Origin: Halobacterium sp. KA-4
GTDB taxonomy: Archaea; Halobacteriota; Halobacteria; Halobacteriales; Halobacteriaceae
Assembly (NCBI RefSeq): GCF_021028995.1
Contig: NZ_JAJJZG010000020.1
Coordinates: forward strand, 1 to 52,222
Length of the DNA: 52,222 bases
Direction of reading: 5' to 3'
Of the stretch, positions 5,031-45,020 are shown one piece after another (position 1 is the stretch's first letter; every line of letters begins with the position of its first letter). The notes beneath the pieces are model-generated. The model ran no database searches, was not told the origin of the DNA, and was given only the letters and a program-made list of their open reading frames with translations. The position numbers and the translations under genes were made by a program.

Positions 5031-5467
5031 AAATAGATTAGATAGAAGAATGGAACGTAGGGTTAGGAAACGAACTCTAACATCGACTGAAGATCATACC
5101 CCATAGCAGTCAGTTGTACTTACACCCGTCGTTGGACTCCCCTTTGTCGCAGTTTCTTGGATGGACTAAACCCTCACAGAACTATTTGCTATCTCCTCGG
5201 AGTAGACAAATACAACAATCCGGAAAGAGACGAAGTCAGAATCCGATGCCAGCTGGCTACGCAGAATCTGGATCCGTATTCAGTACCCACCCGACTCGGT
5301 CATCCTCTGGATAACACAGAGGCGAGAAATCAGCAAAAGGGGAAGACAGGCAACTAGCTCTCATCCTCTTCGTATAGACAGTCACCCGCAGTTACATAAT
5401 GGGTCAGAACTCAACTATACGGTTAAAATAGTAGCCTGGACAGATCCAAGATGGGTTTTGAATGGGA
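5031..5467. other. Intergenic region without a convincing gene
   Basis: This stretch lies between the iteron array and the mcrB promoter. A 66-codon plus-strand frame at 5157-5357 exists but has no promoter, no recognisable motif and competes with other frames. I see no inverted repeat above chance. It may be degenerate sequence. Confidence 0.4.
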
Positions 5468-5475
5468 TTTTATAT
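5468..5475 (+). promoter_or_regulatory. TATA box of the mcrBC-like operon
   Basis: TTTATATA is centred about 28 bp before the ATG at 5500. This marks a leaderless start and rules out the in-frame upstream start at 5458, which would precede the TATA element. Confidence 0.65.
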
Positions 5476-5499
5476 ACTGCGGACTACCTGTATTCGATA

Positions 5500-17628: not shown

Positions 17629-17781
17629 TATTCAGTATATAGAAGCGATAACGCAGGAACCCCATAAGTGTGCGTTCTTCACACCCTTTCTGTACTGTGA
17701 CGAGACCAGTACTGTGGTAGCGAACTGATTGGATACTTATAACCAGTTGTCTTATGTGCCCCGGTTTCCATCAAAACATCA

Positions 17782-19677: not shown

Positions 19678-20134
19678 ATTGGTATACGCTATTTTCGGTG
19701 TACTCAGAGTGCCTGTCATAGACTCGTTCAATTAAATCCCGTAATGACAGGTGGCCATATTCGTTAGCAATGGCCTCGGCAGCGTTAAAGATGACATCAA
19801 TGTCTCCACCTCGGCTCGTAAGTTGCTCTACCGCTTTTCTCCCAGAATCTTCCAGTACGTAATCATATCGCGTATTCCCCCCGACCGTTTTTTCAGTCGA
19901 AATCTTCACCAGACCTTTTTCCTCCAAGTCCTCAATATCCTCCAGTAGCGATTTAGAGAACGGGCCGTAGTCGTACTTTCGGTAGGTATAGGCGTCAAAC
20001 TGGTCTCCGAGCTCTTCTTCATCGAGTAAGAAGGCAAGCTTTTGAAGGCGGGTTTTTCCCTGGATTTCACCATCCATAGCGTCCAGTAACGCTAACGGAA
20101 CCAAGCTCTCGCGGTCGATTGTGATGGATCCCAT
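19673..20134 (-). CDS. YwgA/Panacea-like protein, copy 2
   Basis: This 153-residue protein is homologous to the product of 12090-12542. Shared landmarks are LVPLALLDAMDG at the start, GKTRLQKLAFLLDEEELG, YDYGPFSKSLLEDIEDLE, HLSLRDLIERVY and the C-terminal YTENSVYQY. A TATA-like ATATGAATA sits about 27 bp upstream of the ATG at 20134, so it has its own promoter. It lies between the DUF6338-like gene (convergent) and the DUF499 ATPase gene (same strand). An antitoxin-like or regulatory role is possible from the family, but no partner toxin is identified. Confidence 0.55.
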   Translation of the reverse strand: MGSITIDRESLVPLALLDAMDGEIQGKTRLQKLAFLLDEEELGDQFDAYTYRKYDYGPFSKSLLEDIEDLEEKGLVKISTEKTVGGNTRYDYVLEDSGRKAVEQLTSRGGDIDVIFNAAEAIANEYGHLSLRDLIERVYDRHSEYTENSVYQY

Positions 20135-20250
20135 AGGGCCTACACCTTTTCCTTCGTATTCATATTTCAGTTCTGGGGGTATAGTCTTTGTCCGTTAATA
20201 CACCGAGCGTCTTCTCCTTTGGAAAGACTCAACGAGAGGTGTAGACAGAG

Positions 20251-23200
20251 CTACTTCTGGAAGCTGATCTCGATCTTCAGGCTCGACGCCTCTTCCGGCA
20301 TCCGCTCGAAGAGGTCCTGCACCTTCGTGTAGTCCTGTTCGGACCGCAACGTCAAGCTGACCTGCGTCCGCTCGACGTCGGCGGTCCCCTGAAGAGCACC
20401 GGGAACACCCTCCCTGTCGGGCAGCATGAAGGTGACGTCGCCGTACTCAACGCTCCCCGTCTGGTGGTTGTTCCGCCACTTGCTCCGCATCGCGGCGACG
20501 TCGTCGCCGTTGTACTCGAAGCGCCACGTATCAGCCTCTGTATCAGCCTTCCGGAACGGATAGCCGGGCACCCAGTCGGTGGCCTTGTCCGACCCGGTTG
20601 TGTTGACCACGTACTCCGGTTCCTCGTCCTTCCCGATGTTCTCCAGCAGGAACGTCCGCACCATATACTCGGTGACGCTGTCGTCGAAGCGGTCGGTGAC
20701 CTTGTTGACCGTGAACTGGTCACCCGGCTCCAAGTCCTCGATGTACGCCAGAATCTGGTCACCGATTCGGTCGGATACCGTCGGGACAATCTTGACGGTG
20801 GTCGGCTCGCGATCGCCGAGCGATCCGAGATACCGACCGCCGGCCTCCAGCACGTAGTCGTCGACGAGGAACTCGTTGACCGCCTCACGAGCAACCGATT
20901 CGGTCTCGTCCGGCGGCAGGAACACCGCTTCGTCCGACCGAACCTCTCCGATGATCGTGTCGAGATTCGCGTACCCGTCGTCGTTGATATGCTCCTCGAT
21001 ACGGTCCACAAGGGACGACGCACCGACAACCTTCGCACCGCCGACGTCACGGAGCGTCGCGTCGGATTGTGGCTTGTCGAGGATCTCGTTCCCTTTTACG
21101 ATGACGTACTGGTCCTCACGGGCGAGCCGGCCGATAGCCCGCATCACAACGTCGTGGCTGTCGCCGTCGATCCAGATCTCGCCGTCCTCAACGAGCTCCA
21201 GTTCGAAGTCGCCGATGTCGAGCGCAGTCGTCCCGCTCCCGAAGCGCTGGCGGAGCTCCTGCTCGGCGTCATCGACCCCCCACACGTCCACGTCATCCTG
21301 CTGAACGAGCACGGTGTCCAGCGAGCTTCCGGAAAGGTCGTCACGGAACCCACCAGTATCACGGGCGAGTACCGGCTTGCCGTCGAGCGCTTCGACGGTT
21401 GCGTTCAACACATCGTTGGCACTGCCGGGAATCGGGAGTTCCGGGTCACGGTGGAACTGCTCGTAGATGTCCTCGACCGAGATTTCCCCACGTCGATCCA
21501 GAAGGTCCTCGGCGATGTCCCAGACGTGCGACTGGAGGTCGAACGGGTCAGCTGCCGCAGAGTCCGCAATGTTCGAGGCGTCGAGTTCCGCCTCGTCGAG
21601 GACGAAGACATCGAGATCCATCGGCTCCACTTTCGCCCACTCGTCATCGTCCATCAGATTGTCGCCGTCGATCACATCGCCGTACAGGAGTTGAAGCTCT
21701 TCACGGAGCTCGTTCTCCTCCTGCTCCATCATACTACGAATCGAGGTGCGGATTTCGTCATCGAGTGACTCGTCCGCGAGTACCTGTCGCGCACCCTCAA
21801 TGTACCGCGCCTTGTCGATGTACCGTGTGCCGGACTCGATGGCCTTGTCCCCCGAGGGCTGGACGAAGACGAGTGTGTTGCGCCACTCGCGTCCGCGACC
21901 GTCGTTCGTGATGACCTTCTTCACCTCGTCCTGGGTCCACTGGCCGTCCTTCACGACGACCTTCACCTCACGGTCGTCCGGAATGTCCCGCATATCGTTC
22001 GTCCGGAACCCGACCGGGTGCGCATTCGAGCCGAAGATATCCGTGATGAAGTCCGCAATCTCGGCCTTCGCCGACGTCTCCGACACATCCACAGCTGCGT
22101 TCCGGATGAGTGCGTTCGGGTTCTGCCGGTCACGAATGGCGTACTTCCCGTTCAGCTTGTGGAGGTGCCATGCAACGCCGTGCAATCGTTCGAGGTTGAG
22201 GACGACGTCGGAGACGAGGTCACCTGTCTGGTAGGCACCCATCACGATCTCCGACACCTCCGCACCCTCGCCTTCACTCGGCTTCAACGAGTAGAGGAGA
22301 ATCGTGTTCAGGATGCGACGACCGTGGGGCACTTCATCCGTGTCAACACGACTTTTGATGTCACCGGTAGCGGCGTTCAGTCGTTCGTAGTTGATCTTCG
22401 CCAGTTCGTCCTCAAACTCGATGGCGTCGATGTCGCCGTGTGTGATCAGGTCCGTCTGATCCTGCATCTGCAAGAGAACCTTCGAGAAGAGGTAGATCAT
22501 CCCGCGCGTGTTCTGGTTGCCCTCATCGGCGTAGTAGCGTGTCTCAAGGGCATCCAGAAGCACAGGGTGGAACGGATAGAGATCGTGCATCTCCGACAGC
22601 AAGTCGTCGGGGAGATCGACGTGCCCGTCAGCTTGATCGTATGCGTCGAAGTACCCGTTGACGATCTCGCGGGCCGCACTCTCGTTTACGGAGTCGATCA
22701 GGCGGTGGCGCAGGACCTCGCGCTTGTCCACCTGGTTGTTCATATTGACCTCAACTGCCTGTTCGCGGTTCAGGATATCGTGGACTTCGGAGCCCTCCCG
22801 GAGCACCGAGACGATCGTGTAGAGTTCGAGATCCGAGAGCGCGGTCGATTCGAGCAGTGACTGGAGGAATGCCTTGTTTGCGCTCTTTCGATCACCCTGA
22901 AGCGTATCGAACCAGTCCTCCAATTCGTCCACGAAGAATGCGACAGTGGTGTCGCCGACGGCCTCCTGAATCGTCTGCATATCGGGATAGCCACCCGACT
23001 CGAACGTCCCAGGATCGTAATCAAGCGCCTCGAAGAACGGTTCCCAGAGGTACTCGTACTGTTCGTTCTGCATCGCAACCGTGATCGGCGTCGCCGACTC
23101 TGGAAGCGAAGCGTCGAACCCTTCAACCGAATCACTTGCCCACGCACCCGCGGCATCGGGATCATCGAAACAGTGGTACAGTGCCACCATCTGGTGAGAC

Positions 23201-23466
23201 TTCCCACTACCGTACGGGCCATAGAGGATGTGCGTGCCTCGCGGGTCGTCCCCAGTCAAGGAATCACGAAGAATCGAGAGGGCCTCTCGAAGGCCCTGAG
23301 TCATCAGCGTCCGTTCGAAAAAGAGTGCTGCGTCAGACTCGAACTCGTCGTCGTCGTCAACATTGTAGAGTTTTACCTGCCCATCGATCTGTCCTTCTTC
23401 CCGAAGCTCGCGGCTGAGGGTCACCGTGTCTTCGAGCGTATTTGGTAAGGATCCCGTCTGTGCCAT
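20251..23466 (-). CDS. DUF499 ATPase (anti-phage-associated)
   Basis: This 1071-residue P-loop ATPase has Walker A LYGPYGSGKSHQMVALYHCF (about 80-100) and Walker B TTVAFFVDELEDWFDTLQGD (about 170-190). The long C-terminal part is mostly alpha/beta with repeated winged-helix-like segments. DUF499 proteins are annotated as anti-phage-associated and accompany DUF1156 methyltransferases and helicases. The architecture resembles the PglY/BrxC type of ATPase. The start at 23466 (MAQTGSLPNTLEDT) is preferred over the frame start at 23499. The gene is on the same strand as the small gene at 23522-24094, 55 bp downstream of it. Confidence 0.8.
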   Translation of the reverse strand: MAQTGSLPNTLEDTVTLSRELREEGQIDGQVKLYNVDDDDEFESDAALFFERTLMTQGLREALSILRDSLTGDDPRGTHILYGPYGSGKSHQMVALYHCFDDPDAAGAWASDSVEGFDASLPESATPITVAMQNEQYEYLWEPFFEALDYDPGTFESGGYPDMQTIQEAVGDTTVAFFVDELEDWFDTLQGDRKSANKAFLQSLLESTALSDLELYTIVSVLREGSEVHDILNREQAVEVNMNNQVDKREVLRHRLIDSVNESAAREIVNGYFDAYDQADGHVDLPDDLLSEMHDLYPFHPVLLDALETRYYADEGNQNTRGMIYLFSKVLLQMQDQTDLITHGDIDAIEFEDELAKINYERLNAATGDIKSRVDTDEVPHGRRILNTILLYSLKPSEGEGAEVSEIVMGAYQTGDLVSDVVLNLERLHGVAWHLHKLNGKYAIRDRQNPNALIRNAAVDVSETSAKAEIADFITDIFGSNAHPVGFRTNDMRDIPDDREVKVVVKDGQWTQDEVKKVITNDGRGREWRNTLVFVQPSGDKAIESGTRYIDKARYIEGARQVLADESLDDEIRTSIRSMMEQEENELREELQLLYGDVIDGDNLMDDDEWAKVEPMDLDVFVLDEAELDASNIADSAAADPFDLQSHVWDIAEDLLDRRGEISVEDIYEQFHRDPELPIPGSANDVLNATVEALDGKPVLARDTGGFRDDLSGSSLDTVLVQQDDVDVWGVDDAEQELRQRFGSGTTALDIGDFELELVEDGEIWIDGDSHDVVMRAIGRLAREDQYVIVKGNEILDKPQSDATLRDVGGAKVVGASSLVDRIEEHINDDGYANLDTIIGEVRSDEAVFLPPDETESVAREAVNEFLVDDYVLEAGGRYLGSLGDREPTTVKIVPTVSDRIGDQILAYIEDLEPGDQFTVNKVTDRFDDSVTEYMVRTFLLENIGKDEEPEYVVNTTGSDKATDWVPGYPFRKADTEADTWRFEYNGDDVAAMRSKWRNNHQTGSVEYGDVTFMLPDREGVPGALQGTADVERTQVSLTLRSEQDYTKVQDLFERMPEEASSLKIEISFQK

Positions 23467-23521
23467 CTTGATACTTAAACAAACCTCAGTGGCACCCAAT
23501 AAACACTATGGTCCCGCGAAT

Positions 23522-24094
23522 TCAGCGGTATTGTGAGTCGTCTTCAGACATATCGGGGGGAATCGGCGTGTGGGTACAATTCGGCCGACTAGGGATTGTT
23601 ACGGGCGTGTCGTAGTTCTCGTTATCATACCGTTCTTTCAATCGGTTAAGTAACGGATCAATTTCCCACGTGTCGCCAGCTAGTTTCCTTGTACACTCTG
23701 ACCCTCTGTCTTCGTGTGGCGAATGTGGAATATAGCATTCTGAGTACCCGAGTTCCTTCAGCTGTAGAAATGCCCCGTGGTTGTAGAAGCGAACAGCTTG
23801 CATTCGAATCAAGGCCTCATTCCAATCGCTGCTAAACGTATTATTATCGTGTGAATGCGGCGATTCGCGCCGTGGAAGCTCCTGTAGAACACGTTCATAT
23901 GCCTCTTGATATTCAATTTCGCAGTCAAAGAAGTCGATAAGAATATCTCGTGCATTTTGTTCTCGGTCGCCACCTTCTACCCTCTTTCCATAGATTGGGC
24001 GACCAGGAATGATGTCGGCAATCTGCGTTTGAAGGGCATCGTTACTTCGGATTGCTTCGGGGATTTCTAAGTAGTGACTGGCCCACTGGGTCAT
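23522..24094 (-). CDS. 190-residue protein with possible Mu gpF-like C-terminus
   Basis: No family is certain. The C-terminal part has the spacing of a phage Mu gpF/head-morphogenesis motif: a C-Y-I-P pair, then DRGSECTRKLAGDTWEID (about 135-150), and after an insert PSRPNCTHTPIPP near 175. In gpF proteins this reads Cys-x-x-x-x-Gly followed by P-x-H/P-N-C-R. The helical N-terminus shows nothing recognisable. It stands between the DUF499 gene and the divergent helicase, where other anti-phage islands of this kind carry a DUF3780 gene of similar length, but I see no DUF3780 features. The gpF reading is tentative. Confidence 0.4.
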   Translation of the reverse strand: MTQWASHYLEIPEAIRSNDALQTQIADIIPGRPIYGKRVEGGDREQNARDILIDFFDCEIEYQEAYERVLQELPRRESPHSHDNNTFSSDWNEALIRMQAVRFYNHGAFLQLKELGYSECYIPHSPHEDRGSECTRKLAGDTWEIDPLLNRLKERYDNENYDTPVTIPSRPNCTHTPIPPDMSEDDSQYR

Positions 24095-24248
24095 CTTTGA
24101 TTACCTACCCTAATGTTATTTCACACCCACTTAGTGATTCGGTGGGAGCTCAGCTGCATATGTACACTTCCTAAATGGAGACACAGCTGCCTGGTTGCTG
24201 ATTTGTAGTCACAAAACGTATTTCACGCACACCTGCTTCTACGAACGT

Positions 24249-26003
24249 ATGAGCGGGTACGACCTCGTCGATATCGAGGTCACACACGAATCTGCTGACG
24301 ATCTTCTGGATTCACTGTCTGAGGACGGTACTGATGGGAGTCACCTGCAGAGTATCCAAGCAGTCCGTCTGCAAGCAGGCCAACCAGATTCAGAACTCCG
24401 GTCACTGAAAGAGTTGGACGAGAACGCCGTCAAACTTCTCGAACACCAAGTGGATGCAGCCTACCGGGCTCTCTTCGAAATGGACGGAAAAGCACTCCTG
24501 GCTGACGAAGTCGGCCTCGGGAAGACCATCGAGGTCGGGATGATTCTCAAAGAGATGCACTTCCGTGAAACGGACGAATCCGTCCTCATCCTCACTCCCG
24601 CACAGCTGGCCAAACAGTGGCAGGCTGAACTCCGAGAGAAATTCGGTCTCGACTTCGTCTGCAACTACGACGACGAATTCGAAGATTTCGACGCCCACAA
24701 TTACATCATTGCGAGCATCGACACTGCGAAGAGCGAGCGACATCGTCAGACGGTTCTTGATCGCGACTGGGACGTTTTGGTACTCGACGAGGCCCATTAC
24801 GTCAAAAACGAAGAGACGGACCGTTACGACCTGATTGACCGACTTTCCTACAACTACGCGTTCTTCCTGACGGCGACGCCGATTCAGAACGAACTGACTG
24901 ACCTCTACAACGTCGTCTCGCTACTCCGCCCTGGGCTATTCGGCACACGCGACGTCTTCCACCACTACTTCGTGAACAGCAATCAGGAGACACTGGTGAA
25001 TCGAGACGAGCTACAGGATCGGTTGAACAAAGTGATGATCCGGAACCGACGGGAAGACACAGATATCGATTTCACAGATCGGACTATCGACACACGAACG
25101 TTCGATCCCACCCCGAAGGAACGCGAACTCTACCAGGCAGTCTCTGACTACGTCAAAGGGGCGTACAGTCAGGACCAGGGTCAAAAGCTCGTACTGATGC
25201 TCCTTCAGAAGGAGGTCGTCAGCAGCCCGGTCGCACTCAAGAAGACCATCGAGAAGCGACTCTACGATCAGTCGGAGCTTACACACGCAGACGAACTGGA
25301 GTCTATCTTAGATCTGATCGATGAGATCGATACCGTGACCAAACAGGAACGACTCTTGGATATCGTCGAAGAAGCCCGCGACAACGTCGAGATGGGGAGA
25401 GTCATCGTCTTCACCCAGTTCCGAGCAACCCAACAGCAGATCCTCGACAGGCTTGCCTCGGAGGGATACACAGTACACGCATTCCACGGCGGGCACTCAA
25501 GCAGCGAGAAGGAGCAAATTGTCGAGGACTTCGAAGAAGAAGGAGGAATCCTTGTCTCAACTGACGCCATGAGTGAAGGCCGTAACCTACAGTTTTGCAA
25601 TATATTAGTTAATTTAGACTTGCCGTGGAATCCGATGCGTGTTGAACAACGTATCGGACGCGTACACCGGATCGGCCAGAAGCGAGACGTATTCATCTTC
25701 AACATGGCGTTGAAAGATACAGTCGAAGAGTACGTACTGGAACGGTTGTACCACAAGATCGATCTCTTCCAGCAGAGCGTCGGAGAACTGAGTTCAATCT
25801 TGAGCCGCTTGGAAGAGTCGGGAACAAGCTTCGAAGACGAGATCTTCGAACGGTTGGTGGCCGCTGATTCCGAAGTCGATCTTGAGAACGACTTCGATGC
25901 GATGGCAGTTGACCTCCAGGAACAGCGCGAACTCGCCGACAAACTTGAGGAGTTCAATAGCGGTGTGTTCGAAGGATTCGATCTGGGGGAGAGCGATGAC
26001 TGA
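24249..26003 (+). CDS. SNF2-family helicase of the defence island
   Basis: This 584-residue superfamily 2 ATPase shows motif I LLADEVGLGKTIEVGMIL (about 82-99), motif II VLVLDEAHYVKN, motif III FFLTATPIQNEL, motif V GILVSTDAMSEGRNLQFC and motif VI QRIGRVHRIGQK. It is compact, with only ~50 residues before the ATPase core, and resembles RapA/HepA- and DISARM-type helicases. It probably translocates on foreign DNA together with the DUF499 ATPase and methyltransferase. The start at 24249 (MSGYDLVDIEV) is chosen over the frame start at 24195. It overlaps the next gene by 8 nt (ATGACTGA). Confidence 0.85.
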   Translation: MSGYDLVDIEVTHESADDLLDSLSEDGTDGSHLQSIQAVRLQAGQPDSELRSLKELDENAVKLLEHQVDAAYRALFEMDGKALLADEVGLGKTIEVGMILKEMHFRETDESVLILTPAQLAKQWQAELREKFGLDFVCNYDDEFEDFDAHNYIIASIDTAKSERHRQTVLDRDWDVLVLDEAHYVKNEETDRYDLIDRLSYNYAFFLTATPIQNELTDLYNVVSLLRPGLFGTRDVFHHYFVNSNQETLVNRDELQDRLNKVMIRNRREDTDIDFTDRTIDTRTFDPTPKERELYQAVSDYVKGAYSQDQGQKLVLMLLQKEVVSSPVALKKTIEKRLYDQSELTHADELESILDLIDEIDTVTKQERLLDIVEEARDNVEMGRVIVFTQFRATQQQILDRLASEGYTVHAFHGGHSSSEKEQIVEDFEEEGGILVSTDAMSEGRNLQFCNILVNLDLPWNPMRVEQRIGRVHRIGQKRDVFIFNMALKDTVEEYVLERLYHKIDLFQQSVGELSSILSRLEESGTSFEDEIFERLVAADSEVDLENDFDAMAVDLQEQRELADKLEEFNSGVFEGFDLGESDD

Positions 26004-27159
26004 CGCTTCGATTTCTGTCACGCAATCTGTGGTAGAGCAGTTCACAGAACGGTATCTCCGATCTATCGGCTGTTCCATCGAGCGAAGTGACGATCGCTGG
26101 CTGGTGTCGGTACCCGATGACACAGACACCGAGATTACCCACGGGAGACACACACTCATCCGGGGGGAGGGTACTCCAGACGATGACGATGATAGAACGA
26201 AACGGCTGCATCCAGAGAGTGCGTTCTTTCAACAGCTACTCCGTGAGGCGGGTGAACGATCGCCGTCTGGCAAGCTGTCGATAGAGAGTGAATCTGACAT
26301 CGAGAGTCCGGAGTGGATCCAAAACGGCGCTGTCGAGGTACAGAGCGCACAGTTCACTCCGTACTACGACCGCACAGCCATCGTGGTTCTCTTTCGTGTC
26401 GGTATCGAGACCGTCAGTGAATACCAGCAAGAGCTTCTCCGCGCCGTCGCTGTAGACACGCGATCAGAGGAGAGCCTTCCAAAACTGGCGGAGACATTCC
26501 TCGACACCACCACAGTAGAGAGCGAGACGGCCACTAGTGGCACTGTACAGCTGACCAAGACAGATGTGCGACCTCTCCTCGAAACAGCCCGGGAACTGTT
26601 GCTGGAAAGCGTACAGGGGCAGCTCGACGACATTCATCGAGAAGCCTCGCGTGCGGCAGATTCAGAAGTTGAAGAGTACCGTCAGATGCAACAACAGCGT
26701 ATCCAGGAGCTACAGGAAGAACACTCGAACCTGTCGTCGAAGATCAACGATCTGAGTGAGAAGATCAACACAGGAGACGAGGATTCACGCGTCCAAGCGT
26801 TGCGAGAACGGAAAGAACTCAAATCGGAGTACGAGGAACTCGACGAGACGCTCAACGAATTACAGGAGCGCCGTGACAGTGGATTCCCCAATCGACAACG
26901 AGAAATCCGAGAGCGGCACTCACTTGACGTGCAGGTCACACCGCTTACTCTGACGGAAGTTGAGTACGAGCGAGGCGAGATTGATTTCGAACTTATCGAC
27001 GGTAGCATACATCAAACCGTTACTCTCGGATACGGGAGTGGAATCGGTGTATCCGATACTGTTCGATGTTCGTCGTGTGAACGGGAACTCACCGAACGCA
27101 ACCCGCTTCAAACGGTTTCAGATGGACTCAAATGCCAGAGTTGTATCAAAGAGCGGTGA
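25996..27159 (+). CDS. Coiled-coil protein with C-terminal zinc ribbon, helicase partner
   Basis: This 387-residue protein has an N-terminal alpha/beta domain (to about 185), a long charged coiled coil (about 200-300, EEYRQMQQQRIQELQEEHSN, then a heptad-rich stretch) and a C-terminal zinc ribbon with CSSC and CQSC pairs (about 362-385). No family is recognised. Its 8-nt overlap with the SNF2 helicase gene indicates coupled translation and probably a stable complex. The coiled coil may dimerise it and the ribbon may contact DNA. The role is inferred from context. Confidence 0.6.
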   Translation: MTDASISVTQSVVEQFTERYLRSIGCSIERSDDRWLVSVPDDTDTEITHGRHTLIRGEGTPDDDDDRTKRLHPESAFFQQLLREAGERSPSGKLSIESESDIESPEWIQNGAVEVQSAQFTPYYDRTAIVVLFRVGIETVSEYQQELLRAVAVDTRSEESLPKLAETFLDTTTVESETATSGTVQLTKTDVRPLLETARELLLESVQGQLDDIHREASRAADSEVEEYRQMQQQRIQELQEEHSNLSSKINDLSEKINTGDEDSRVQALRERKELKSEYEELDETLNELQERRDSGFPNRQREIRERHSLDVQVTPLTLTEVEYERGEIDFELIDGSIHQTVTLGYGSGIGVSDTVRCSSCERELTERNPLQTVSDGLKCQSCIKER

Positions 27160-27333
27160 TACGGCGACCCCTCGATAGTTCAATAGAGCAAAGCCGCTGA
27201 GCGAATACAGCTAGCACACTGATTCGTCAGGGAAGCCGCCGAACGAGCTGGATATCCGGAACTGAAGGCAACGCCAGGGCTACCGAAGTGAGAATTTGCT
27301 GAAAAGATTCGAAACCTCGGTGATATGGCGCTG

Positions 27334-27438
27334 TTAGTCTTGGAGGGGGGCGACTGTTCGGCCCGTTTCCTCGGCCTCTTCGCTGCGCGACATATTGTAC
27401 GTCGCGAGCGCTTCTTCAACGGCCTCATCAAGACTCAT
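27334..27438 (-). CDS. 34-residue acidic small protein
   Basis: ATG at 27438 to TAA at 27334 encodes MSLDEAVEEALATYNMSRSE and a short tail. The composition and helical N-terminus look like a genuine haloarchaeal protein, unlike the antisense frames. No ribosome-binding site or TATA is obvious, and the function is unknown. It could be the remnant of a longer gene. Confidence 0.35.
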   Translation of the reverse strand: MSLDEAVEEALATYNMSRSEEAEETGRTVAPLQD

Positions 27439-27474
27439 TGGTCGACCTGATTTTGACTCTTCTACCGTATAAAC

Positions 27475-27691
27475 GCATGCATGGCACCAGACAAGTAACA
27501 AGCACCCTCAATTCATCTCGGTCGGTGCTGAGTGCGCGGATGTTCTTCTCTGCTCTGAGGAATCCGTTGCCGCCGAACAACTTGGCCCCGAACGAATTCC
27601 GGATATGTCGAAGGAGATATCTGGATTTGCGGTACGACTACTCGAGAATGCTGGCTTCCGAACGCTGTTCTTGACTAATCAGCGCGACTAG
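27475..27691 (+). pseudogene. Possible gene remnant before the AddA-like gene
   Basis: After a stop near 27472, one plus-strand frame runs open to TAG at 27691 with coding-like composition (SVGAECADVLLCSEESVAAE then MSKEISGFAVRLLENAGF). It lacks an obvious start and overlaps the convergent AddA-like gene by about 50 bp. It may be the decayed end of an unknown gene. The rest of 27160-27637 holds only the 34-residue frame. Confidence 0.25.
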
Positions 27692-30499
27692 GTCCGCTTT
27701 CGAGAGTGGATCAATATCAACACGGACCCCTTGTGCAGTATAGAAGATCTCTGCGGTCACCTCTCGACCAGAGAACCATTCATTCAGCACGTGATAGTAC
27801 ACGCTGAGTTGCTTCCGATACTCCCCCTCGGCGTGCCGCCCGAGGTCGGTTTTGAAGTCGATGATCTCGACGGTATCGGGACGAATGTGAACGAGGTCGA
27901 TGATTCCAGAGATGGTGACCTGCTCGCCGTCGACAGTGAGTGGCAGATACGCATCCACCTCAACTCGTAGCTCACCATCGAGCGAGTCTATGAGCGACTT
28001 GAGGTGACGCTCGTCGTCGTTCGAGGGTTCGACGTCTCCTTCCAGTACGTACCGCTCAGCAAACTCGTGGGTCTGCGTTCCGAACGCTGTCCCTCTCCCG
28101 TCATCAACATCCTCGAACACATCGTCACGCATCAGCGTATGTGGCGAGTGACCGACTGGACCATCCGGCGTCGGGACAGCAATCTGCAAGTGTGCCTGCG
28201 TCGTCTCGTCGATGTCGTCTTCCTGAATGTCGGGCTCCAGTTCCTCGATGTCGACCGGGAGCTCTTCAATGAACGTGTTCGGGCTCTCGCCTGCAGCGAA
28301 CACGAGATGGCTCTCAGCTCGCGTCATCGCGACGTAGAGCAAGCGTCGTTCTTCGTCGTATCCACGCGGCAGGCACTTTCGAAGGACATCGGCCCGCCAG
28401 TTGTCGTGGATGTGAGGATACCCATGATCGTCGGCGTAGAGTTTCCGCTGGCGTAGTCCAATCGGATCGGCGAACGTGATCGCGTTACTGTTCCCGCCTG
28501 ACGGCGGGAAGCAATGGGAGTTCATGTTCGCGAGCACGACAATGGGATGCTCGAGTCCCTTGGCCGCGTGGATGGTCTGGACCGTCACCGAATTCATACC
28601 GGCGCTCGCGTGGACTTCATGGGTGCTTCCGTCCTCGATGCCGCGTTCGATGAATCGGATGAGGTCACCTCGTGTCAATGTCGTCGCGCTGTGGACGGAC
28701 TGAATCGTCGTCAGCAGCACGTCGGCATACGCCCCGACGTAGTCGTACTGGGAGAACACGCGCTGGACAACCCCACCGACCGTCTCCAGTGACGCAAGCT
28801 CCGACTTGAACGCCTGCATATTGGTGGGATACTCCTCACTATCGAGGATGTGTTTGACCTCGTCGAGCGTGTAGCCAGCTTCCTCAAGCACGACTGCCCA
28901 TCCTCGCTCCGCGTCGGATTCGAGAATTCGCAACCACGCCAAGAGAAGCTTCGCCGGGTCAGACCGGAACAACTCGATGCCTCCTTCGTATGCCATCGGC
29001 AACCCATACGCTTCGGCGACAGAGAGGAGTTCTCGGCCGAAGTCACGAGTCCGGGTGAGGACGGCGATGTCACCGTACTCTGGCAAACGAAGTTCCCCAT
29101 CCTCCTCAACCTGATACGCGTCGTTCCCGACGATCTCCTGAATCTTGGTCAGAACGGCTTCGTGTTCGTCTTCGTGTCGAATCGCCTCTATCTGGGAGTT
29201 CTCGTGCGAGGCGTTCGAGGAGAGCGAAACGATGCGGTCTCGGACGGCCGTCTCGTCGACGTCGTCCGTGCTCGCCGCGGGCGTCACCAGACTGTGCTCG
29301 GAGAAGTCGAGAATGTCCTGCGTCGACCGGTAGTTCTCGACTAGCTCAATATCGATGATCGGGCGGGTCGCCCACGACACTCGTTCGTGGTCCTCGTTGA
29401 GCTCGTCGACGAACCGATCCAGGCGGGACTCGAACTCGGTGATGTTCTCGACGGCCGCGTACTGGAACGAGTAGATGCTCTGTTTCCAGTCGCCGACGAC
29501 ACAGACGTTGTTCGTGTCCGCGAGCAAGAGAGCGAGTTTGAACTGGATCTCGCTGGAGTCCTGGAACTCGTCGATCATCACGTACTCGAACGCGACGTCG
29601 TCGCGGAGTCGGTGGTCGTCACAGAGCAGGACGAACGCAAATAGCTGGAGAAAGCTGAAGTTGAGGTAGTTCCGACTGAGCGCGAACGCAAGGTACTCGT
29701 GGTAGACGTCGTGAACGAAGTTCTTGAGGGCCTCTCGCTGTTCGTCAAACACCAGCTGTGCGACGCCATCAGGAACCTGCTTCTCACCCCATCCGCCACG
29801 GATCTCGTCCTCCTTGGGCGCGTCTGGGAGATAGCACTTGTCGTCCCCGTAGCCGCCGAGTTTCGAGCGAAGCTTCGACTGCTTGTTCCCGTCGTTTCGG
29901 GGCTGGTTCAGTTCGTCGAAGATCTCGCGGAACGCCTCGAAATCACCGTCCAGGTGCCGCTCGCCGTTCCGGTACCAGCCATCGGCCGTCGGGAAGACAC
30001 CTTTCGCCGCGAGCTGATTGATTAACCCGAGGAGTTCGACTGGTTCCTCGATAGCGCGGAAGAAGTCGTCGTACTCGGGATGGTCGTCGCTGAACCGACG
30101 GATGAACTCGCGGAATTGCGCCTTCTCGACGTTCTCGTCTTCGAGGACACGTGTGGACCCCGTGATGCGGTCGTCGATGCCGAGGAGCGTCGGTGCCTCG
30201 AAGCCGTGTTCCATGAGGATGTCGTGACAGAGGCTGTGGAACGTCTGGATCGGTGCGTCCGAGAGTTCACGCATCCCGTAGTCACAGTGGGCGACGATTC
30301 GGTCCTTCATCTCCGTCGCCGCGTTGTTGGTAAACGTCACGAGGAGGACGTCCTCAGGTTCGACGTCGTCTTGGTCGACGATTTCGGCGTAGCGACGGGT
30401 GACGGTGAACGTCTTTCCAGTCCCTGCGCCGGCGTCGACAACGTGGATGCCCTGTTTGCTGTCGATGAGGTCTTGCTGTTGGTCGTTTGGTGCAGTCAT
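27638..30499 (-). CDS. AddA/RecB-like UvrD helicase-nuclease
   Basis: This 953-residue superfamily 1 helicase has Walker A VVDAGAGTGKTFTVTRRY (about 19-36), motif II YVMIDEFQDSSEIQF, motif V VTVQTIHAAKGLEHPIVVL and motif VI ERRLLYVAMTRAESH. The C-terminal RecB-type nuclease core shows ISGIIDLVHIRPDT and EIIDFKTDLGRHAEGEY. It overlaps the AddB-like gene by 4 nt (ATGA). Together the two should process DNA ends like AddAB. Location in a defence island rather than with housekeeping repair genes suggests a role in degrading invading DNA. Haloarchaea do not use RecBCD for general repair as far as I know. Confidence 0.8.
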   Translation of the reverse strand: MTAPNDQQQDLIDSKQGIHVVDAGAGTGKTFTVTRRYAEIVDQDDVEPEDVLLVTFTNNAATEMKDRIVAHCDYGMRELSDAPIQTFHSLCHDILMEHGFEAPTLLGIDDRITGSTRVLEDENVEKAQFREFIRRFSDDHPEYDDFFRAIEEPVELLGLINQLAAKGVFPTADGWYRNGERHLDGDFEAFREIFDELNQPRNDGNKQSKLRSKLGGYGDDKCYLPDAPKEDEIRGGWGEKQVPDGVAQLVFDEQREALKNFVHDVYHEYLAFALSRNYLNFSFLQLFAFVLLCDDHRLRDDVAFEYVMIDEFQDSSEIQFKLALLLADTNNVCVVGDWKQSIYSFQYAAVENITEFESRLDRFVDELNEDHERVSWATRPIIDIELVENYRSTQDILDFSEHSLVTPAASTDDVDETAVRDRIVSLSSNASHENSQIEAIRHEDEHEAVLTKIQEIVGNDAYQVEEDGELRLPEYGDIAVLTRTRDFGRELLSVAEAYGLPMAYEGGIELFRSDPAKLLLAWLRILESDAERGWAVVLEEAGYTLDEVKHILDSEEYPTNMQAFKSELASLETVGGVVQRVFSQYDYVGAYADVLLTTIQSVHSATTLTRGDLIRFIERGIEDGSTHEVHASAGMNSVTVQTIHAAKGLEHPIVVLANMNSHCFPPSGGNSNAITFADPIGLRQRKLYADDHGYPHIHDNWRADVLRKCLPRGYDEERRLLYVAMTRAESHLVFAAGESPNTFIEELPVDIEELEPDIQEDDIDETTQAHLQIAVPTPDGPVGHSPHTLMRDDVFEDVDDGRGTAFGTQTHEFAERYVLEGDVEPSNDDERHLKSLIDSLDGELRVEVDAYLPLTVDGEQVTISGIIDLVHIRPDTVEIIDFKTDLGRHAEGEYRKQLSVYYHVLNEWFSGREVTAEIFYTAQGVRVDIDPLSKADLVALISQEQRSEASILE

Positions 30500-33084
30500 C
30501 GTGACTCACCCTCCAGGATGCAATCGCGGTTGTCCACGTACCGATAGTTTGGATCGCCACCGAGTCCCTGAACCGGGAAGCGCTCATCACCGGCACGACG
30601 GTCGTTCAACTCCGATAGGCGATCTTGGACAAACTGCTCGAATGCATCCACATCGCCGGTGAAATAGTTCTGGTTACGAATACGGAGCAAGTGTCTCAGG
30701 GCCTGCTTACAGCCGTTTTTCACGTACTTGTAGTCCCCGACATCAGCGATCAGTCGCTCTGTGAGCGCGTCGCCGAATTTTGATTCGATGAGTTCGTCGC
30801 TGTCGCTGGTGTCCGGGACCTCATACGCATCCAACACCGCTTGGTAGACCTCAAATGTCGACTTCGAGAAGGTCTTGTTACAGTCGTTCGCGGCGTCTTC
30901 CTGCAGTTCCGTGAAGACATCTGGGCTCGCGATGTATTCCTCGAAGGTGACTGGATAGTAGGTCACCGTAGTGAGGCAGTCTTCGAGAGAACCATTCCCA
31001 GTCACCACATCGTCAAGCGTTTCGAGGAAGTGGAAGAACGTGAATCGCAGTTCCTCATCCGGGTGCTCGGTCCGCTGGTGAGCGAGGTACAGCAACGCCT
31101 GGAAGTTCGGTTTGTCGCTCGGTGGATCGAGCGCCGAATGCTTTACAATCGAGTATGCTGACTTCTTTGAGCCACTCTTGTAGTCGAGGAGTCGGGTCGG
31201 GCTGTGAACGAGGTCGATCTTGCCCTTCAACCCGAGATCAGTGTTCTCGAACCAACGTTCAGTGTGCGACGCATCGATGGGGCGGTCGTAATACTCGGCG
31301 AAGAAGTTCTCTCCCCAACCACCGTCAGGCGTCACCAGGCCGTCACCGTGAGGTGAGTTTGCATTCAGGAATTCAACGATGGTCTGGAGACCGACGCGGT
31401 ACTTGGTGAGTCGAACTTCCCGGTCGACGCCCCGGAGGAACGGGTCGACTTCGTCGAGAATGGCTGCGGCTACATCGTCGAGTGTATCAGACGTGATGGC
31501 GTCCGGATGCGAGACATAGAACTCCGCGAAATCGTGGAACAGGTTCCCTTCCCTAAAGTGGTCCTTGTCCGGGTTGTCGACGAGTCGACTGAAGAAGTAA
31601 TCACGGGGGGAGTTGACGTAGGAGTTCAGACTCGACTGGCTGAGTGCGGTGACGTCCTCGTGGGAGACATCGAGTGGTTCTTTTTCGAATCCGTCCTGTG
31701 TCGTCCGAGACGCCCGTGAATGCTGCAGTGAGTCCAAATCACTGAATCGGTCGAACTCCTCGTCGAACAGTTCCTCAAAGTATAGGCACGGGGTGACAGG
31801 CGTTCCACCGGCGGTGTCCTGCACGAGGTAGTACTGGTCGACGCCGTTCTGCAGGAGAAGTTGGAACTGCCGAATGTTCCGTTCAAACTCCTGATCTCGG
31901 TCGACCCACGGGCGACGAGGCGACGAATGTGTCCAACCTTCGTCGAGGCCGAGATAGAACACGACGGCGCGGTCGACATGAGCGGCCGATTTTGCATCTG
32001 CCAATAGGACACCTTCGTTCTCCCGATCCACAGGCACTTCGTACGACTGCAAGTAGAATTCGAGACGGTCAACTGCCGGTTCGGTGACGGCGTCGTCGAG
32101 GAGGCCGACCGTCGCGAGTTCCTCTCTGAAGGCGTCGATAGAGGCATCCGTGACTGCTTCGTATTCGTCGATGGCCTCCTCGAATGTGCGGGCACGAATC
32201 TCATCACGGAACTCAAGGAGCCAGTCTACTTCCGGGTGGTCGAGGTCGTAGAGACGCTTCTCGTCGTGCTCGATGTCGACGGGCATCCCGAGCTGGGTGA
32301 GGAGTGGTCGAACGTCGCCTACTCGTGTATCTCGGCCAGCGTGAGCACTTCGAAGGAGCTGTAAGAATGCGCGGTGACGGGCATCGTCGTTGAATCCCGG
32401 ACCGCCGTAGTATGGAATCTCTGCCGCTTCCAGCGCCGACTCAATGAGCGAGGAATACTGACTGGCTGCATCGAGGACGACAGCCACGTCATCGGCGTTC
32501 TCCGGTGTGACCGTATCGAGGACCGCGTCGACGATTGCGGCCGGTGAATCGAGAATGCGGAAGGATGGATGATCGAATAACCCCTCGGTGAACGGGTCGA
32601 CCGTCTCGTAGTCTGGGGGAAGGATCGAGCGTTCGAGTTCGGTAAGCTGCTTGAAGCCGACAACAGCGACCGACGTGTCGGCTTCGATACTGTACTCAGT
32701 GAGACGGTTAGATGTCGTGTCCATCTCTGCGATACAGTCGACAGCAGTGTGCGTTGCCGTCGTCGCGAACTGCTCGTAGTCCAGAATAGCGTTAGCCGTC
32801 CCCTGATATTCCCAGCACTGGAGGATGTTCCCGACCGCATAGGACGTCTCCTTCCAGTTGAGGTCAGTTGTCTGAATGATTTCGAGGAACGCAAGTCGAT
32901 CCTCGGCCTGTTCTCGGCGTCGGGCAGCCAGGCGCCGTGGTGTGATCGCGAATGGCCCGAAGTGAGGTTGGTCAAGACGCCTGTTCAGGGCACTCGCCAT
33001 CGGCGCATCCGGCACGAGCACAAGGTCGAAATCCTTGCATTCCTCGTAGAGAGAATCGATAGACTTCGCTCGTGTAATTGACAC
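30496..33084 (-). CDS. AddB-like PD-(D/E)xK nuclease subunit
   Basis: This 862-residue protein has a degenerate helicase-like N-terminal two-thirds without a Walker A motif. The C-terminal nuclease core has SSLNSYVNSPRDYFFSRLVD (about 474-493), LGLKGKIDLVHSPTRLLDYK with the catalytic D and K, then a Q-x-x-x-Y-like QALLYLAH. AddB proteins usually carry a Cys before the Pro (C-P-x-x-F), part of an iron-sulfur cluster. Here it is Ser, so the cluster is probably absent. The GTG at 33084 is the best start. It is the upstream member of the pair and overlaps the AddA-like gene by 4 nt. Confidence 0.7.
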   Translation of the reverse strand: MSITRAKSIDSLYEECKDFDLVLVPDAPMASALNRRLDQPHFGPFAITPRRLAARRREQAEDRLAFLEIIQTTDLNWKETSYAVGNILQCWEYQGTANAILDYEQFATTATHTAVDCIAEMDTTSNRLTEYSIEADTSVAVVGFKQLTELERSILPPDYETVDPFTEGLFDHPSFRILDSPAAIVDAVLDTVTPENADDVAVVLDAASQYSSLIESALEAAEIPYYGGPGFNDDARHRAFLQLLRSAHAGRDTRVGDVRPLLTQLGMPVDIEHDEKRLYDLDHPEVDWLLEFRDEIRARTFEEAIDEYEAVTDASIDAFREELATVGLLDDAVTEPAVDRLEFYLQSYEVPVDRENEGVLLADAKSAAHVDRAVVFYLGLDEGWTHSSPRRPWVDRDQEFERNIRQFQLLLQNGVDQYYLVQDTAGGTPVTPCLYFEELFDEEFDRFSDLDSLQHSRASRTTQDGFEKEPLDVSHEDVTALSQSSLNSYVNSPRDYFFSRLVDNPDKDHFREGNLFHDFAEFYVSHPDAITSDTLDDVAAAILDEVDPFLRGVDREVRLTKYRVGLQTIVEFLNANSPHGDGLVTPDGGWGENFFAEYYDRPIDASHTERWFENTDLGLKGKIDLVHSPTRLLDYKSGSKKSAYSIVKHSALDPPSDKPNFQALLYLAHQRTEHPDEELRFTFFHFLETLDDVVTGNGSLEDCLTTVTYYPVTFEEYIASPDVFTELQEDAANDCNKTFSKSTFEVYQAVLDAYEVPDTSDSDELIESKFGDALTERLIADVGDYKYVKNGCKQALRHLLRIRNQNYFTGDVDAFEQFVQDRLSELNDRRAGDERFPVQGLGGDPNYRYVDNRDCILEGESR

Positions 33085-41871: not shown

Positions 41872-43179
41872 ATGAGTCGGTCGGATGCCGAGCAGGAGGG
41901 CAAGACCGACGCTGAGCGGGTGCCATCATTCGATGGCGTCCGATGGACCTCGTGCTCGCTCGAGGACTTCACGGACCTGTACTGGGACGAGATTGCCCCC
42001 TGCGTTGAAGCAGAGGGTATCGATCCGAGAGGCGAGAAGCCGACCCACCAGTGGTTTCGGGATCACGATGCGCGGTCATTCCTCGCGGCTCTCCGCCGCC
42101 ATCACGATCGCTCATTCGGGGAGTTCTGGAACGAGGACCTCGAGCTCGGTGGTGATGAAGAGGGCTACACATGGGCAACGACGGATGATGCAACATTGGA
42201 CGCCCTTGAACAGTTCCTCAACCGGCGGAAATCACGATACAGCCTTGCGACGTCGTCCGTCGACGCGCTGCGAACGCGACTGAATCTCTACGTCCGTGCT
42301 TATCGAGAGGCAAACGGGACAGATGACCTCCTTACACCGATTCAACGAGATCAAGAGAATCCAGACTACGAAGCCGTTGACGCGTGCTATGCAGCATTCG
42401 ACTGGTTGAACGAGGGAACTAAACGCGAATACAGTGCCCAGACTCTCCAGCGTGTGCGGCGCGTCGTCGACGCCTGGTATCAGCATCTAGTCGGTCGACG
42501 GGTTGCCTCGATGAACCCTGCGAGCGGCCTCTACGACGAATTCAAGTGGGAAGTCGAAGATTCACCCACACCTTCGCTTTCAGCGAATCAGATTCGGAAA
42601 CTGATGCAGGCGTCGGAGACAACGCGAGAACAGCTGCTCGTGGTGGCGTTAGCTGGCTGGGGACTTCGTGCAAGTGAGGTCGCCGCACTCCATGTATCGC
42701 AGTTCCACCGTGACGTTCCCGAAGACGACATCCCCTTCATTACGTTCGAGAGTCGCAAGAACGGGCCCGGTGAGGTGTCTCTCCTGTACGGAATGGACGT
42801 TCTCGACTCCCGAATCGACGAGCTAGCGGAAGACGATACGTGGACTGGATACCTGTTCCCCTCCTCTCAGGGTGAAACGCCGTACGTGACCCGAGATACA
42901 ATCCGGAATTGGTTCCAAAATCTTGCATTGGAAGCAGATCTCCCCGAGCGGATCGAGGGTGAACGACCGAGTCCACAGCTCTGTCGTCGATTCTGGTACG
43001 ACACCTATACAGCAGTCCTCGAAGGCGTTCTCGAAGGTCTTGACGAAATCGCTGCAGAGCAAGGTAGTAGCGATCCTCGGGTAGTGATGCAAAATTACCT
43101 GTCTGACTCGCGTGCTCGCCGAGTCCGACGAGAATTCATGCGAGACCAACTTAACGCAGCCTTCGGAGAGAGAACGTAA
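41872..43179 (+). CDS. Tyrosine recombinase/integrase
   Basis: This 435-residue protein has a SAM-like N-terminal region (about 155-225) and a phage-integrase catalytic domain. The first Arg is in AGWGLRASEVAALHVSQF (about 267). A Lys follows in ESRKNGPGE, the second Arg in SPQLCRRFWYD (the usual His of H-x-x-R is replaced) and the Tyr nucleophile in VVMQNYLSDSRARR near 410. The degenerate box II is common in archaeal members. It probably integrates or resolves the plasmid. It lies directly upstream of the second partition array, on the same strand as parA2. It differs from the truncated integrase at 378-595. Confidence 0.75.
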   Translation: MSRSDAEQEGKTDAERVPSFDGVRWTSCSLEDFTDLYWDEIAPCVEAEGIDPRGEKPTHQWFRDHDARSFLAALRRHHDRSFGEFWNEDLELGGDEEGYTWATTDDATLDALEQFLNRRKSRYSLATSSVDALRTRLNLYVRAYREANGTDDLLTPIQRDQENPDYEAVDACYAAFDWLNEGTKREYSAQTLQRVRRVVDAWYQHLVGRRVASMNPASGLYDEFKWEVEDSPTPSLSANQIRKLMQASETTREQLLVVALAGWGLRASEVAALHVSQFHRDVPEDDIPFITFESRKNGPGEVSLLYGMDVLDSRIDELAEDDTWTGYLFPSSQGETPYVTRDTIRNWFQNLALEADLPERIEGERPSPQLCRRFWYDTYTAVLEGVLEGLDEIAAEQGSSDPRVVMQNYLSDSRARRVRREFMRDQLNAAFGERT

Positions 43180-43230
43180 CATCAACCCATCTGTCGAGCT
43201 ATTCCAAATGTCTGTCCTCGGTTGGTGACT

Positions 43231-43623
43231 GAATCAATGAGTCACAGAGTCAATGAAGTATTGACTTCTGGAAGTTAAGAATCAAAGAGTCCATGATCTA
43301 TAGCGTCATTTGCCATCATGGAGAGAGTCAATTCACCGACTCATAGAATCATTGAATCACTGAATCAGTGAGTGTCTGAAGCATTGAATCGAGGATTCAG
43401 GAACACCAGACCCGCATCACGAAATCACTGAATCAATGAATCAATGAAATTTTGACGTTGTGAATCATTGAGTTTGTGAGTCAATGATTCAAAGACAGTG
43501 CTCGGGGAAGAGGCAATCATAGCTCTTAGGCCCTCAAGCGCTGATATCCGACAGAATCGCATTGAGAGAGATACAACTGAGTGTCTGACATGGATTTATG
43601 AGTCATTGAATCAATGATCGAAC
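43231..43623. repeat. Partition iterons of module 2, GA(A/G)TCANT arrays with 8-bp phasing
   Basis: Units starting with GA recur every 8 bp. The first run is 43231-43302 (GAATCAAT, GAGTCACA, GAGTCAAT and degenerate units). The second is 43346-43401 (GAATCATT, GAATCACT, GAATCAGT and more). The third is 43430-43500, and the last 43600-43623 ends one base before the parA start. The core is GAATCAAT or GAGTCAAT. More than 20 units are countable. The phase and the position before a parA gene mark a centromere/operator, not a CRISPR. Confidence 0.85.
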
Positions 43624-43624
43624 T

Positions 43625-44536
43625 ATGACCGAGACACCTCGTGGATGGGGCGTCACACCATCGACTGGCATCCCCACGATCGCCTTCGGCAACCAGAAAG
43701 GCGGGACAGGAAAGACAACGGCGACGATCAACAGTGCCGCGGCGCTGGCCACTCGCGACCACGATGTTCTTGCAATCGATATGGACCCACAGGCCGACAT
43801 GACGAAAGGGCTTGGACTGGGTCCGGGCGACGACAACGATCCATCAAGCCCGAAGAACGAACTCCCCAACACACTAGTCACCGATGACGAGAACCTACTC
43901 GACGTACTCGTCGACAATCCGCGCACGCACGATACTAGTCTTTCAGAAATCGTGATCGAAGCCGATGAGTACGACCATCTGAACTTCGACTTGATTCCCA
44001 GTCACAAGGACATGGGCCTTGCTCGAGATTGGATGGACGATGCGAATGCTCGTCTCTCGCTGAAACTCGCCCTCGAAGAGATGGTTGACGACGGATACAA
44101 CTACGATTTTATCGTAGTCGATTGCCCTCCCGACCTCTCAGTCCTGACGGACGCGGCCTTCATCGCGGCTCAGAACGTCTTCCTGGCTGCACAGACCCAA
44201 GCAACATCACGGGATGCACTTGACGATCTGTGGGACCAGCTGGAGTCCATCGAGGACAACCAGCAGATTGAGATCGCAATCGTTGGACTCCTGGCGAACA
44301 TGTACCGGGACGACGGTCAGTCGCAAAAGTTCCTCAACTCCTTCGACGAGTCCTTCGCATCGATGGCACCGATTTTCAAACTCCCGATGCGAGTAGCAAT
44401 CCAGCGTGCGTGGGACAACGGACGAGATATTTTCGGATGGGAAGACGCGAACGACCAGCAAGTAGAGCGCGACCTCTTCCTGGAGGTTGCGGAGACGATG
44501 GAACGAGCGTTTGACAAAACGCAGGTGGAGGCGTAA
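43625..44536 (+). CDS. parA: ParA-family partition ATPase (module 2)
   Basis: This 303-residue protein has the deviant Walker A NQKGGTGKTTATINSAAALA (about 23-42), Walker A' LAIDMDPQADMTKGLG and Walker B FIVVDCPPDLSVLTDA. This is a classical ParA/Soj plasmid-partition ATPase. Its promoter lies within the last iterons (TTTATG at about 43595-43600), so binding of the partner should repress it. The small partner gene starts 2 nt after its stop. It differs from the ParA at 3987 in Walker A sequence and iteron type, so the two systems should be independent. Confidence 0.9.
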   Translation: MTETPRGWGVTPSTGIPTIAFGNQKGGTGKTTATINSAAALATRDHDVLAIDMDPQADMTKGLGLGPGDDNDPSSPKNELPNTLVTDDENLLDVLVDNPRTHDTSLSEIVIEADEYDHLNFDLIPSHKDMGLARDWMDDANARLSLKLALEEMVDDGYNYDFIVVDCPPDLSVLTDAAFIAAQNVFLAAQTQATSRDALDDLWDQLESIEDNQQIEIAIVGLLANMYRDDGQSQKFLNSFDESFASMAPIFKLPMRVAIQRAWDNGRDIFGWEDANDQQVERDLFLEVAETMERAFDKTQVEA

Positions 44537-44538
44537 GA

Positions 44539-44991
44539 ATGCCCCGGGGAATGGACGAGCGGTTCGAGGATCCCTCAGACGAGGTGGATGAGGAGAACGC
44601 GGTCGCAGACGAGGAGACCACAGAGACGTCGGAGGAATCGGAAGAACAGGATCGTGAAACTGCGGCAGCAACCGAGGATCGATCAGATCAGCAGAGAGCC
44701 ACATCCACGACCGATACTGATTCGTCGACCAGTGAGGCAGGAGAAACAGATGACGAACCGCTGAACATCCGCGAAGATTGGGATTCAGCCACGATATACG
44801 TTGAACCGGAGCAAAGCGAGGACATCGAGATCACGTTCACTCGCCTGAAAAAGCAGCTCAAACGCGAGGACATCACGCTGGAGAAAAACAAGCACTTCTA
44901 CCGCGGTGTTTTCGAGGTGGCGTTCGGCGAGCACCAGGAGGAAACGAAGGAGATGATTCGCGAACTCGCCAAGGAAGACGCCGATCAGTGA
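44539..44991 (+). CDS. Small acidic ParA partner of module 2, putative centromere-binding protein
   Basis: This 150-residue protein has an acidic Ser/Thr/Glu-rich N-terminus (about 1-70). The C-terminal domain starts with a strand (SATIYVEPEQ, about 82-91) followed by two helices (ITFTRLKKQLKRE and FYRGVFEVAFGEHQEETKEM), compatible with a ribbon-helix-helix protein. It begins 2 nt after parA. Iterons GAATCACT and GATTCACA overlap its stop codon and continue to about 45020. It has no sequence similarity that I can see to the module 1 partner beyond the shared layout. Role as adaptor is inferred. Confidence 0.6.
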   Translation: MPRGMDERFEDPSDEVDEENAVADEETTETSEESEEQDRETAAATEDRSDQQRATSTTDTDSSTSEAGETDDEPLNIREDWDSATIYVEPEQSEDIEITFTRLKKQLKREDITLEKNKHFYRGVFEVAFGEHQEETKEMIRELAKEDADQ

Positions 44992-45020
44992 ATCACTGAT
45001 TCACAGAATCTTGAATGATG
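44990..45020. repeat. Distal iterons of partition module 2
   Basis: GAATCACT (44990), GATTCACA (44998), GAATCTT (45006) and GAATGATG (45013) continue the pattern seen upstream of parA2. As in module 1, the partition operon is bracketed by its repeats on both sides, and the first unit overlaps the partner's stop codon. Confidence 0.6.

Follow-up and report, generated by a model that had tools for sequence, protein, structure and literature searches.

An 8-bp iteron array as the probable centromere and operator of a ParA/acidic-partner cassette in haloarchaea

The nature of archaeal centromeres, whether chromosomal or plasmid-borne, figures among the outstanding questions in a review of segregation in archaea (PMC5120986), and random partitioning has been presumed to serve haloarchaeal replicons (PMC6063281). 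The window analyzed here, that is, the whole stretch of 52,222 bp, is contig C12 of a 3.3-Mb draft haloarchaeal genome in 55 contigs; its ends display no terminal overlap that would prove circularity. It bears two parA genes, and directly before the second of these lies an array of 8-bp repeats, which raises the question of what such repeats might do and which protein might read them. No description of iterons at a haloarchaeal parA gene was found in the open-access literature that we searched, and within that literature haloarchaeal iteron centromeres are apparently undescribed. Elsewhere, the window contains an McrBC-like pair (5458-8489) and a gene cluster comprising a DUF1156 methylase, DUF499, an SNF2 helicase, a UvrD helicase and a PD-(D/E)XK nuclease (14965-33084), both of which look like phage-defense cargo.

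The iteron array and the par genes

The locus is organized as follows:

41872 to 43179, plus strand: tyrosine recombinase upstream of the array, with a weak Phage_integrase/XerA match
43230 to 43309, plus strand: iteron block I, TGANTCAN units in phase 6 (mod 8), of whose ten positions about nine have two mismatches or fewer
43337 to 43400, plus strand: iteron block II, phase 1, eight units, 7 of 8 with at most one mismatch
43413 to 43492, plus strand: iteron block III, phase 5, ten positions, five exact units
43595 to 43600, plus strand: TTTATG, TATA-box-like, about 28 bp before the parA ATG
43599 to 43622, plus strand: iteron block IV, promoter-proximal, two exact units at -26 and -18 bp from the ATG and a degenerate third; predicted operator
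43625 to 44536, plus strand: parA (second of the contig), 303 aa, AAA_31/CbiA family (AAA_31, 3.2e-35)
44539 to 44991, plus strand: partner (ParB-like adaptor), 150 aa; residues 1-74 are acidic and probably disordered, and the C-terminal domain (~76-150) is conserved
44989 to 45012, plus strand: iteron block V, spanning the partner stop codon

The 8-bp iteron array is real and occupies ~400 bp (43230-43622). The best form of its unit is the near-palindromic TGANTCAN, and half-sites TGA and TCA alternate at 4-bp steps within it. This interval holds 11 exact copies of TGANTCA, and 20 copies if one mismatch is tolerated, where the remainder of the window predicts 0.15 and 1.9, respectively; the longest in-register run, allowing two mismatches per unit, comprises nine units, as against a maximum of four in 1,000 shuffles. 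The first-pass annotation had proposed a periodicity analysis of the region near 43200-43625, in which the 8-bp period indeed stays strong: lag-8 identity across 43225-43624 is 0.462 against 0.263 expected (z 8.7), a value reached in 0 of 500 dinucleotide shuffles. Lags 16 and 24 (the harmonics) and lag 4 rank after lag 8, and lag 7 is at chance level; the smaller autocorrelation peaks at lags 4 and 12 are there because the unit is near-palindromic, with half-sites 4 bp apart. The top lag-8 windows of the full 52 kb all fall within the array region, and 146 random 400-bp pieces drawn from the window gave a z of 3.2 at most when seven lags were considered.

More than 20 iterons in strict register had been claimed at the outset. 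This count stands if up to two mismatches are allowed, but a single continuous register does not, as the register holds only inside blocks and the phase differs among the four blocks upstream of parA. Similarly, the last unit was said to reach almost to parA, which is true of a degenerate unit, TGATCGAA, extending to 43622, whereas the last exact 8-mer ends at 43614, with the parA ATG at 43625. The repeats placed across the partner stop are found there, with units at 44989-45004 and the stop codon TGA constituting the opening three bases of a block V unit. Within block II, four contiguous units (43337-43368) with at most one mismatch each reach the pSM19035 minimum of at least four repeats. 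By simple arithmetic, an 8-bp step at 10.5 bp per turn rotates each site by ~274 degrees, and after four units the sites come back almost to the starting face of the helix. The position of TTTATG would fit the TATA box of a leaderless transcript, a reading that rests on the general structure of haloarchaeal promoters; a sigma-70 and terminator scan was uninformative, as expected for an archaeon.

Residues 25-32 of the 303-residue ParA protein are KGGTGKTT, a deviant Walker A motif, and the protein has no N-terminal HTH extension. The gene for the partner starts after a 2-bp gap from the parA stop, and the two are predicted to constitute an operon. The N-terminal half of the partner is acidic and of low complexity; the protein has no curated Pfam or NCBIfam assignment and, being a 150-aa protein with an acidic tail, showed no ParB-family match in these two databases that would place it with the HTH/CTPase ParBs (Spo0J, P1/F type). 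Its C-terminal domain is predicted to adopt a strand-helix-helix arrangement with a third helix (pLDDT 71): in the model, an extended segment, ATIYVE, leads into three helices, of which the first two are ordered as in the ribbon-helix-helix (RHH) fold, which the partner may have. In RHH proteins the strand pairs across the dimer. Foldseek searches with the C-terminal model (pLDDT 71), in which such cross-dimer pairing is absent, gave a best E of 2.7, all values being above 1, with the VapBC complex 3zvk at E 7.8, and VIA-align with the same model gave Z of at most 4.1 to mixed folds, with no RHH family prominent. The full-length model (pLDDT 52) returned no fold matches, PDB sequence and profile searches with the partner no RHH match, and hhalign comparisons with single omega and ParG sequences no signal.

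A proposed function for the array and its partner

The locus has a type Ib-like anatomy: its ParA is short, the next gene downstream encodes a small adaptor, and a short-repeat array overlaps the predicted promoter. We consider it likely that 43230-43622, together with the satellite at 44989-45012, represents the parS centromere and operator of a haloarchaeal type Ib-like par operon and is bound by the 150-residue partner. Reasoning by analogy, we infer that the partner and the array function through protein-DNA binding, dimerization, contact with ParA, repression and segregation. Thus envisaged, the partner would dimerize via its C-terminal domain and bind TGANTCA units side by side in 8-bp steps, and its cooperative winding along blocks I-III would give rise to the partition complex. 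The acidic disordered N-terminal tail would then reach the ParA ATPase on chromosomal DNA, and ParA cycling would move and separate the plasmid copies. Bound to block IV, which separates the TATA-like box from the start codon, the partner would turn off transcription of the parA-partner genes, amounting to autoregulation.

One could posit that the repeats do only the last of these things, i.e. autoregulate the parA-partner operon, with the centromere lying elsewhere. Such a role would agree with the overlap of units and predicted promoter seen in every lineage, but blocks I-III extend 130-395 bp upstream of the promoter, beyond what repression needs, block V lies at the operon end, one plasmid has orphan arrays (see below), and no other candidate centromere site was seen. 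As a purely operator role leaves blocks I-III and V unexplained, it is disfavored, and we consider it unlikely. Alternatively, the array might be a plasmid origin whose iterons are bound by a Rep or Orc1/Cdc6 protein. In support of this, orc1/cdc6 genes occur near some related loci, and ori and parS are combined upstream of parAB in cisII/cisMP of Deinococcus radiodurans (PMC7671480); against it, a scan of the contig's main ORFs revealed neither an Orc/Cdc6 nor a Rep domain, and orc1/cdc6 is missing from most neighborhoods of the closely related (clade A) loci, in which parA and the partner are constant. An origin in this sense appears decidedly unlikely, while a combined ori/parS role, as in Deinococcus, is possible by analogy.

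A centromere beside parA is the best-supported reading of the array, in that the latter follows the par cassette over dozens of plasmids and is otherwise absent on most of them, with distant cassettes having arrays of their own. Among the considerations against it, haloarchaea are polyploid and some authors hold that random partitioning suffices in Haloferax (PMC6063281), the partner model has no significant fold match, and one Haladaptatus plasmid has orphan arrays without parA.

Conservation and diversification of haloarchaeal cassettes

Using tblastn we recovered the partner in 27 haloarchaeal plasmids, and a scan of a genome collection for it yielded 49 loci from many genera, 36 of them close. 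In a genome-wide scan, the array was present upstream of parA in 33/33 clade A loci with an intact parA, and in all 33 of these 33 the top period of the 450 bp upstream of parA is 8 bp. Exact units occur at both -26 and -18 bp from the parA ATG in 31 of 34 clade A loci, with TTTATG directly before them in all listed clade A loci, and a unit at the partner stop is likewise found in 31/34. The blocks farther upstream differ in number and place among these loci, with unit and pitch remaining constant. Two plasmids with a truncated parA (L017, L030) are missing the array; the upstream part of L017 has been replaced, and hence the observation is descriptive only. Part of this conservation reflects descent, since the clade A loci share ancestry. 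Slippage can generate short-period repeats, but the notion that the array is a neutral tandem repeat of such origin, which we regard as barely credible, is already contradicted by conservation: diverged loci keep the unit, the period and the promoter-proximal positions. Moreover, the copies are imperfect and arranged in several phased blocks, and there is no similar array elsewhere in the 52 kb.

At the level of whole replicons, nine of 11 complete plasmids have the tandem pattern TGANTCANTGANTCA at the par locus alone; of the other two, one has a single stray match, and that of Haladaptatus sp. QDMS2 has two extra arrays and two stray matches. Across the genome to which the window belongs, the pattern GARTCANTGARTCANTGA is restricted to this contig. 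The Haladaptatus plasmid NZ_CP119793.1, which also has a full par locus, bears near-identical orphan 8-bp arrays at L137:1603-1870 and L138:3551-3818, each immediately following a tyrosine recombinase gene that is not related to the one in the window, and with no parA there.

The adjacency of two orphan arrays to another recombinase, and the recombinase directly upstream of the array both in the window and at many other loci, might point to the repeats being accessory sites of the neighboring tyrosine recombinase in dimer resolution. Yet an upstream tyrosine recombinase is found at many but not all clade A loci, the array being kept at loci without one (e.g. L024-L028, L101-L103) and beside unrelated recombinases, and the unit type tracks the ParA/partner lineage rather than the recombinase. 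The recombinase is linked to the array but not required. Because it is absent or replaced at many array-bearing loci, recombination sites are unlikely as the primary role of the repeats, and we assign this explanation very little probability; a link of the array to dimer resolution is possible.

The conservation of the candidate centromere within clade A is matched by diversification outside it. Our survey of 392 genomes of the order detected the partner in 131, of which ~45 have close relatives and the rest mostly a distant form, clade B, with an identity to the window pair of ~30% for ParA and ~28-33% for the partner. Close and distant partners are homologous (hhalign E 4.5e-13) and the gene order is common to both forms, parA-partner being kept in all clade A and B loci that have both genes. 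Autocorrelation of the array before the clade B parA genes identified AACGAANNN at a 9-bp step; 18/18 clade B loci tested have a top lag of 9 or 18, with lag 8 at chance, and 10 of 12 in a named set of such loci agree with the 9-bp pitch. PHROG families 26668 and 29165, both without function annotation, match distant partners. A scan of viral contigs with ParA found nothing, and one with the partner alignment found two contigs, with distant cassettes. On an IMG/VR contig (L140, ~1870-1930), 9-bp repeats of the GTGAAACGA type extend into the 5' part of a distant parA coding sequence, and these iterons may be partly coding. Two 38-kb plasmids of Halobacterium salinarum (L029, L032) combine an intact distant-type ParA/partner pair with a broken window-type partner relic and no array, as if one par system had replaced another. 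We also noted this haloarchaeal cassette in MAGs labelled Thermoplasmata and Spirochaetaceae (L116, L118), which are probably mis-binned plasmid contigs from one metagenome.

The window's own genome encodes six further ParA/acidic-partner cassettes, each with a private array: the pitch is 9 bp at the first parA of the contig, at C10, C13, C26 and weakly at C5, and 13 bp at C6. The first cassette of the contig comprises:

3593 to 3994, minus strand: acidic-tail partner of the first parA (MSDDDPFADL...)
3987 to 4871, minus strand: first parA of the contig, of a lineage distinct from the second and with a 9-bp iteron array
4866 to 5010, minus strand: 9-bp iterons before the first parA, AATAGNNNN / inverted TATTC, AATAG units (lag 9 z 3.5)

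The presence of two par systems within its 52 kb hints that the contig is a fused or cointegrate replicon. The array on C6 (L084, C6:45500-48700; positions ~850-1370) consists of ~40 units of 13 bp, approximately GNNNCTGNNNCAT (lag 13 z 12.8), and sits 260-780 bp upstream of its ParA/acidic-partner cassette. The array before the second parA had been described as an unusually long centromere; its identity as a centromere is favored above, but for haloarchaea its length is not unusual, the other arrays of this genome being of comparable or greater length (e.g. the ~40 units of 13 bp on C6). ParA genes of the first-parA lineage occur in 257 of 392 genomes, and 16 of 20 divergent loci of this lineage have a top upstream period of 9, 18 or 27. 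Because 9-bp arrays recur across the surveyed ParA lineages, a pitch of 9 bp appears to be the usual one in haloarchaea, with the 8-bp palindromic array as a distinct variant.

On balance, we lean toward the view that haloarchaeal plasmids harbor a large, diversified and undescribed class of ParA plus acidic-tailed adaptor cassettes, each lineage with its own iteron centromere, and that the unit and pitch (8, 9 and 13 bp), in changing with the adaptor, would act as an archaeal plasmid incompatibility code by which one cell can maintain seven such cassettes together; the change of unit and pitch with partner lineage is a correlation, with counts uncorrected for phylogeny. The arrays represent defined candidate centromeres, and the partner a defined candidate for the protein that binds them, in hosts that can be cultured and are genetically tractable. 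Should partner and pitch indeed co-diverge, the family would provide a natural series for how an adaptor reads sites spaced by 8, 9 or 13 bp, and also a means of sequence-based typing of haloarchaeal plasmid incompatibility.

Comparison with known partition systems

The palindromic TCTAGA-S-TCTAGA sites of the SegB type (motif: PMC12284271) are not the window unit, which is TGANTCAN every 8 bp. The SegAB system of the Sulfolobales differs further in being chromosomal, with its sites scattered on the chromosome, only two of them before segA, and no long iteron array. The ParB of Deinococcus is of the HTH type. In D. radiodurans, the cisII/cisMP elements resemble the present locus in being direct-repeat arrays immediately upstream of parAB with parS function (PMC7671480), but differ in their 18-bp iterons, DnaA boxes and ori activity.

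The first-pass annotation likened the array to the 7-bp heptads bound by omega, which is sound as a functional ("works like") analogy. Like the window locus, the delta-omega/parS system of pSM19035 pairs a ParA with a small adaptor, has contiguous short direct repeats over its par promoters, and shows a similar unit core (WATCACW heptads there versus GAATCACT here). Its 7-bp repeats overlap the par promoters, and activation of ParA needs at least four contiguous repeats (PMC9499535). It differs in stepping by 7 bp and in having its heptads distributed over six separate parS sites, each with 7-10 of them (PMC9499535), whereas the near-palindromic 8-bp units of the window lie in a single large region upstream, plus one 3' block. 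Unlike omega, with which it has no detectable sequence similarity, the window partner has a long acidic tail.

The ParF-ParG-parH system of TP228 likewise combines a ParA-type ATPase with a tailed adaptor that acts on an array of short boxes and represses its operon. According to Wu et al. 2011, the parH boxes are reportedly of 4 bp with 4-bp spacers, which amounts to an 8-bp step. TP228 differs in its tetramer sequence, AT spacers and separate operator, and ParG has no detectable similarity to the window partner. ParG, whose N-terminal tail is flexible, coats the array of boxes and doubles as repressor of its own operon (PMC7308502). For the 8-bp step, TP228 parH, with its tetramer boxes and AT-rich spacers, is by analogy likely the closer precedent.
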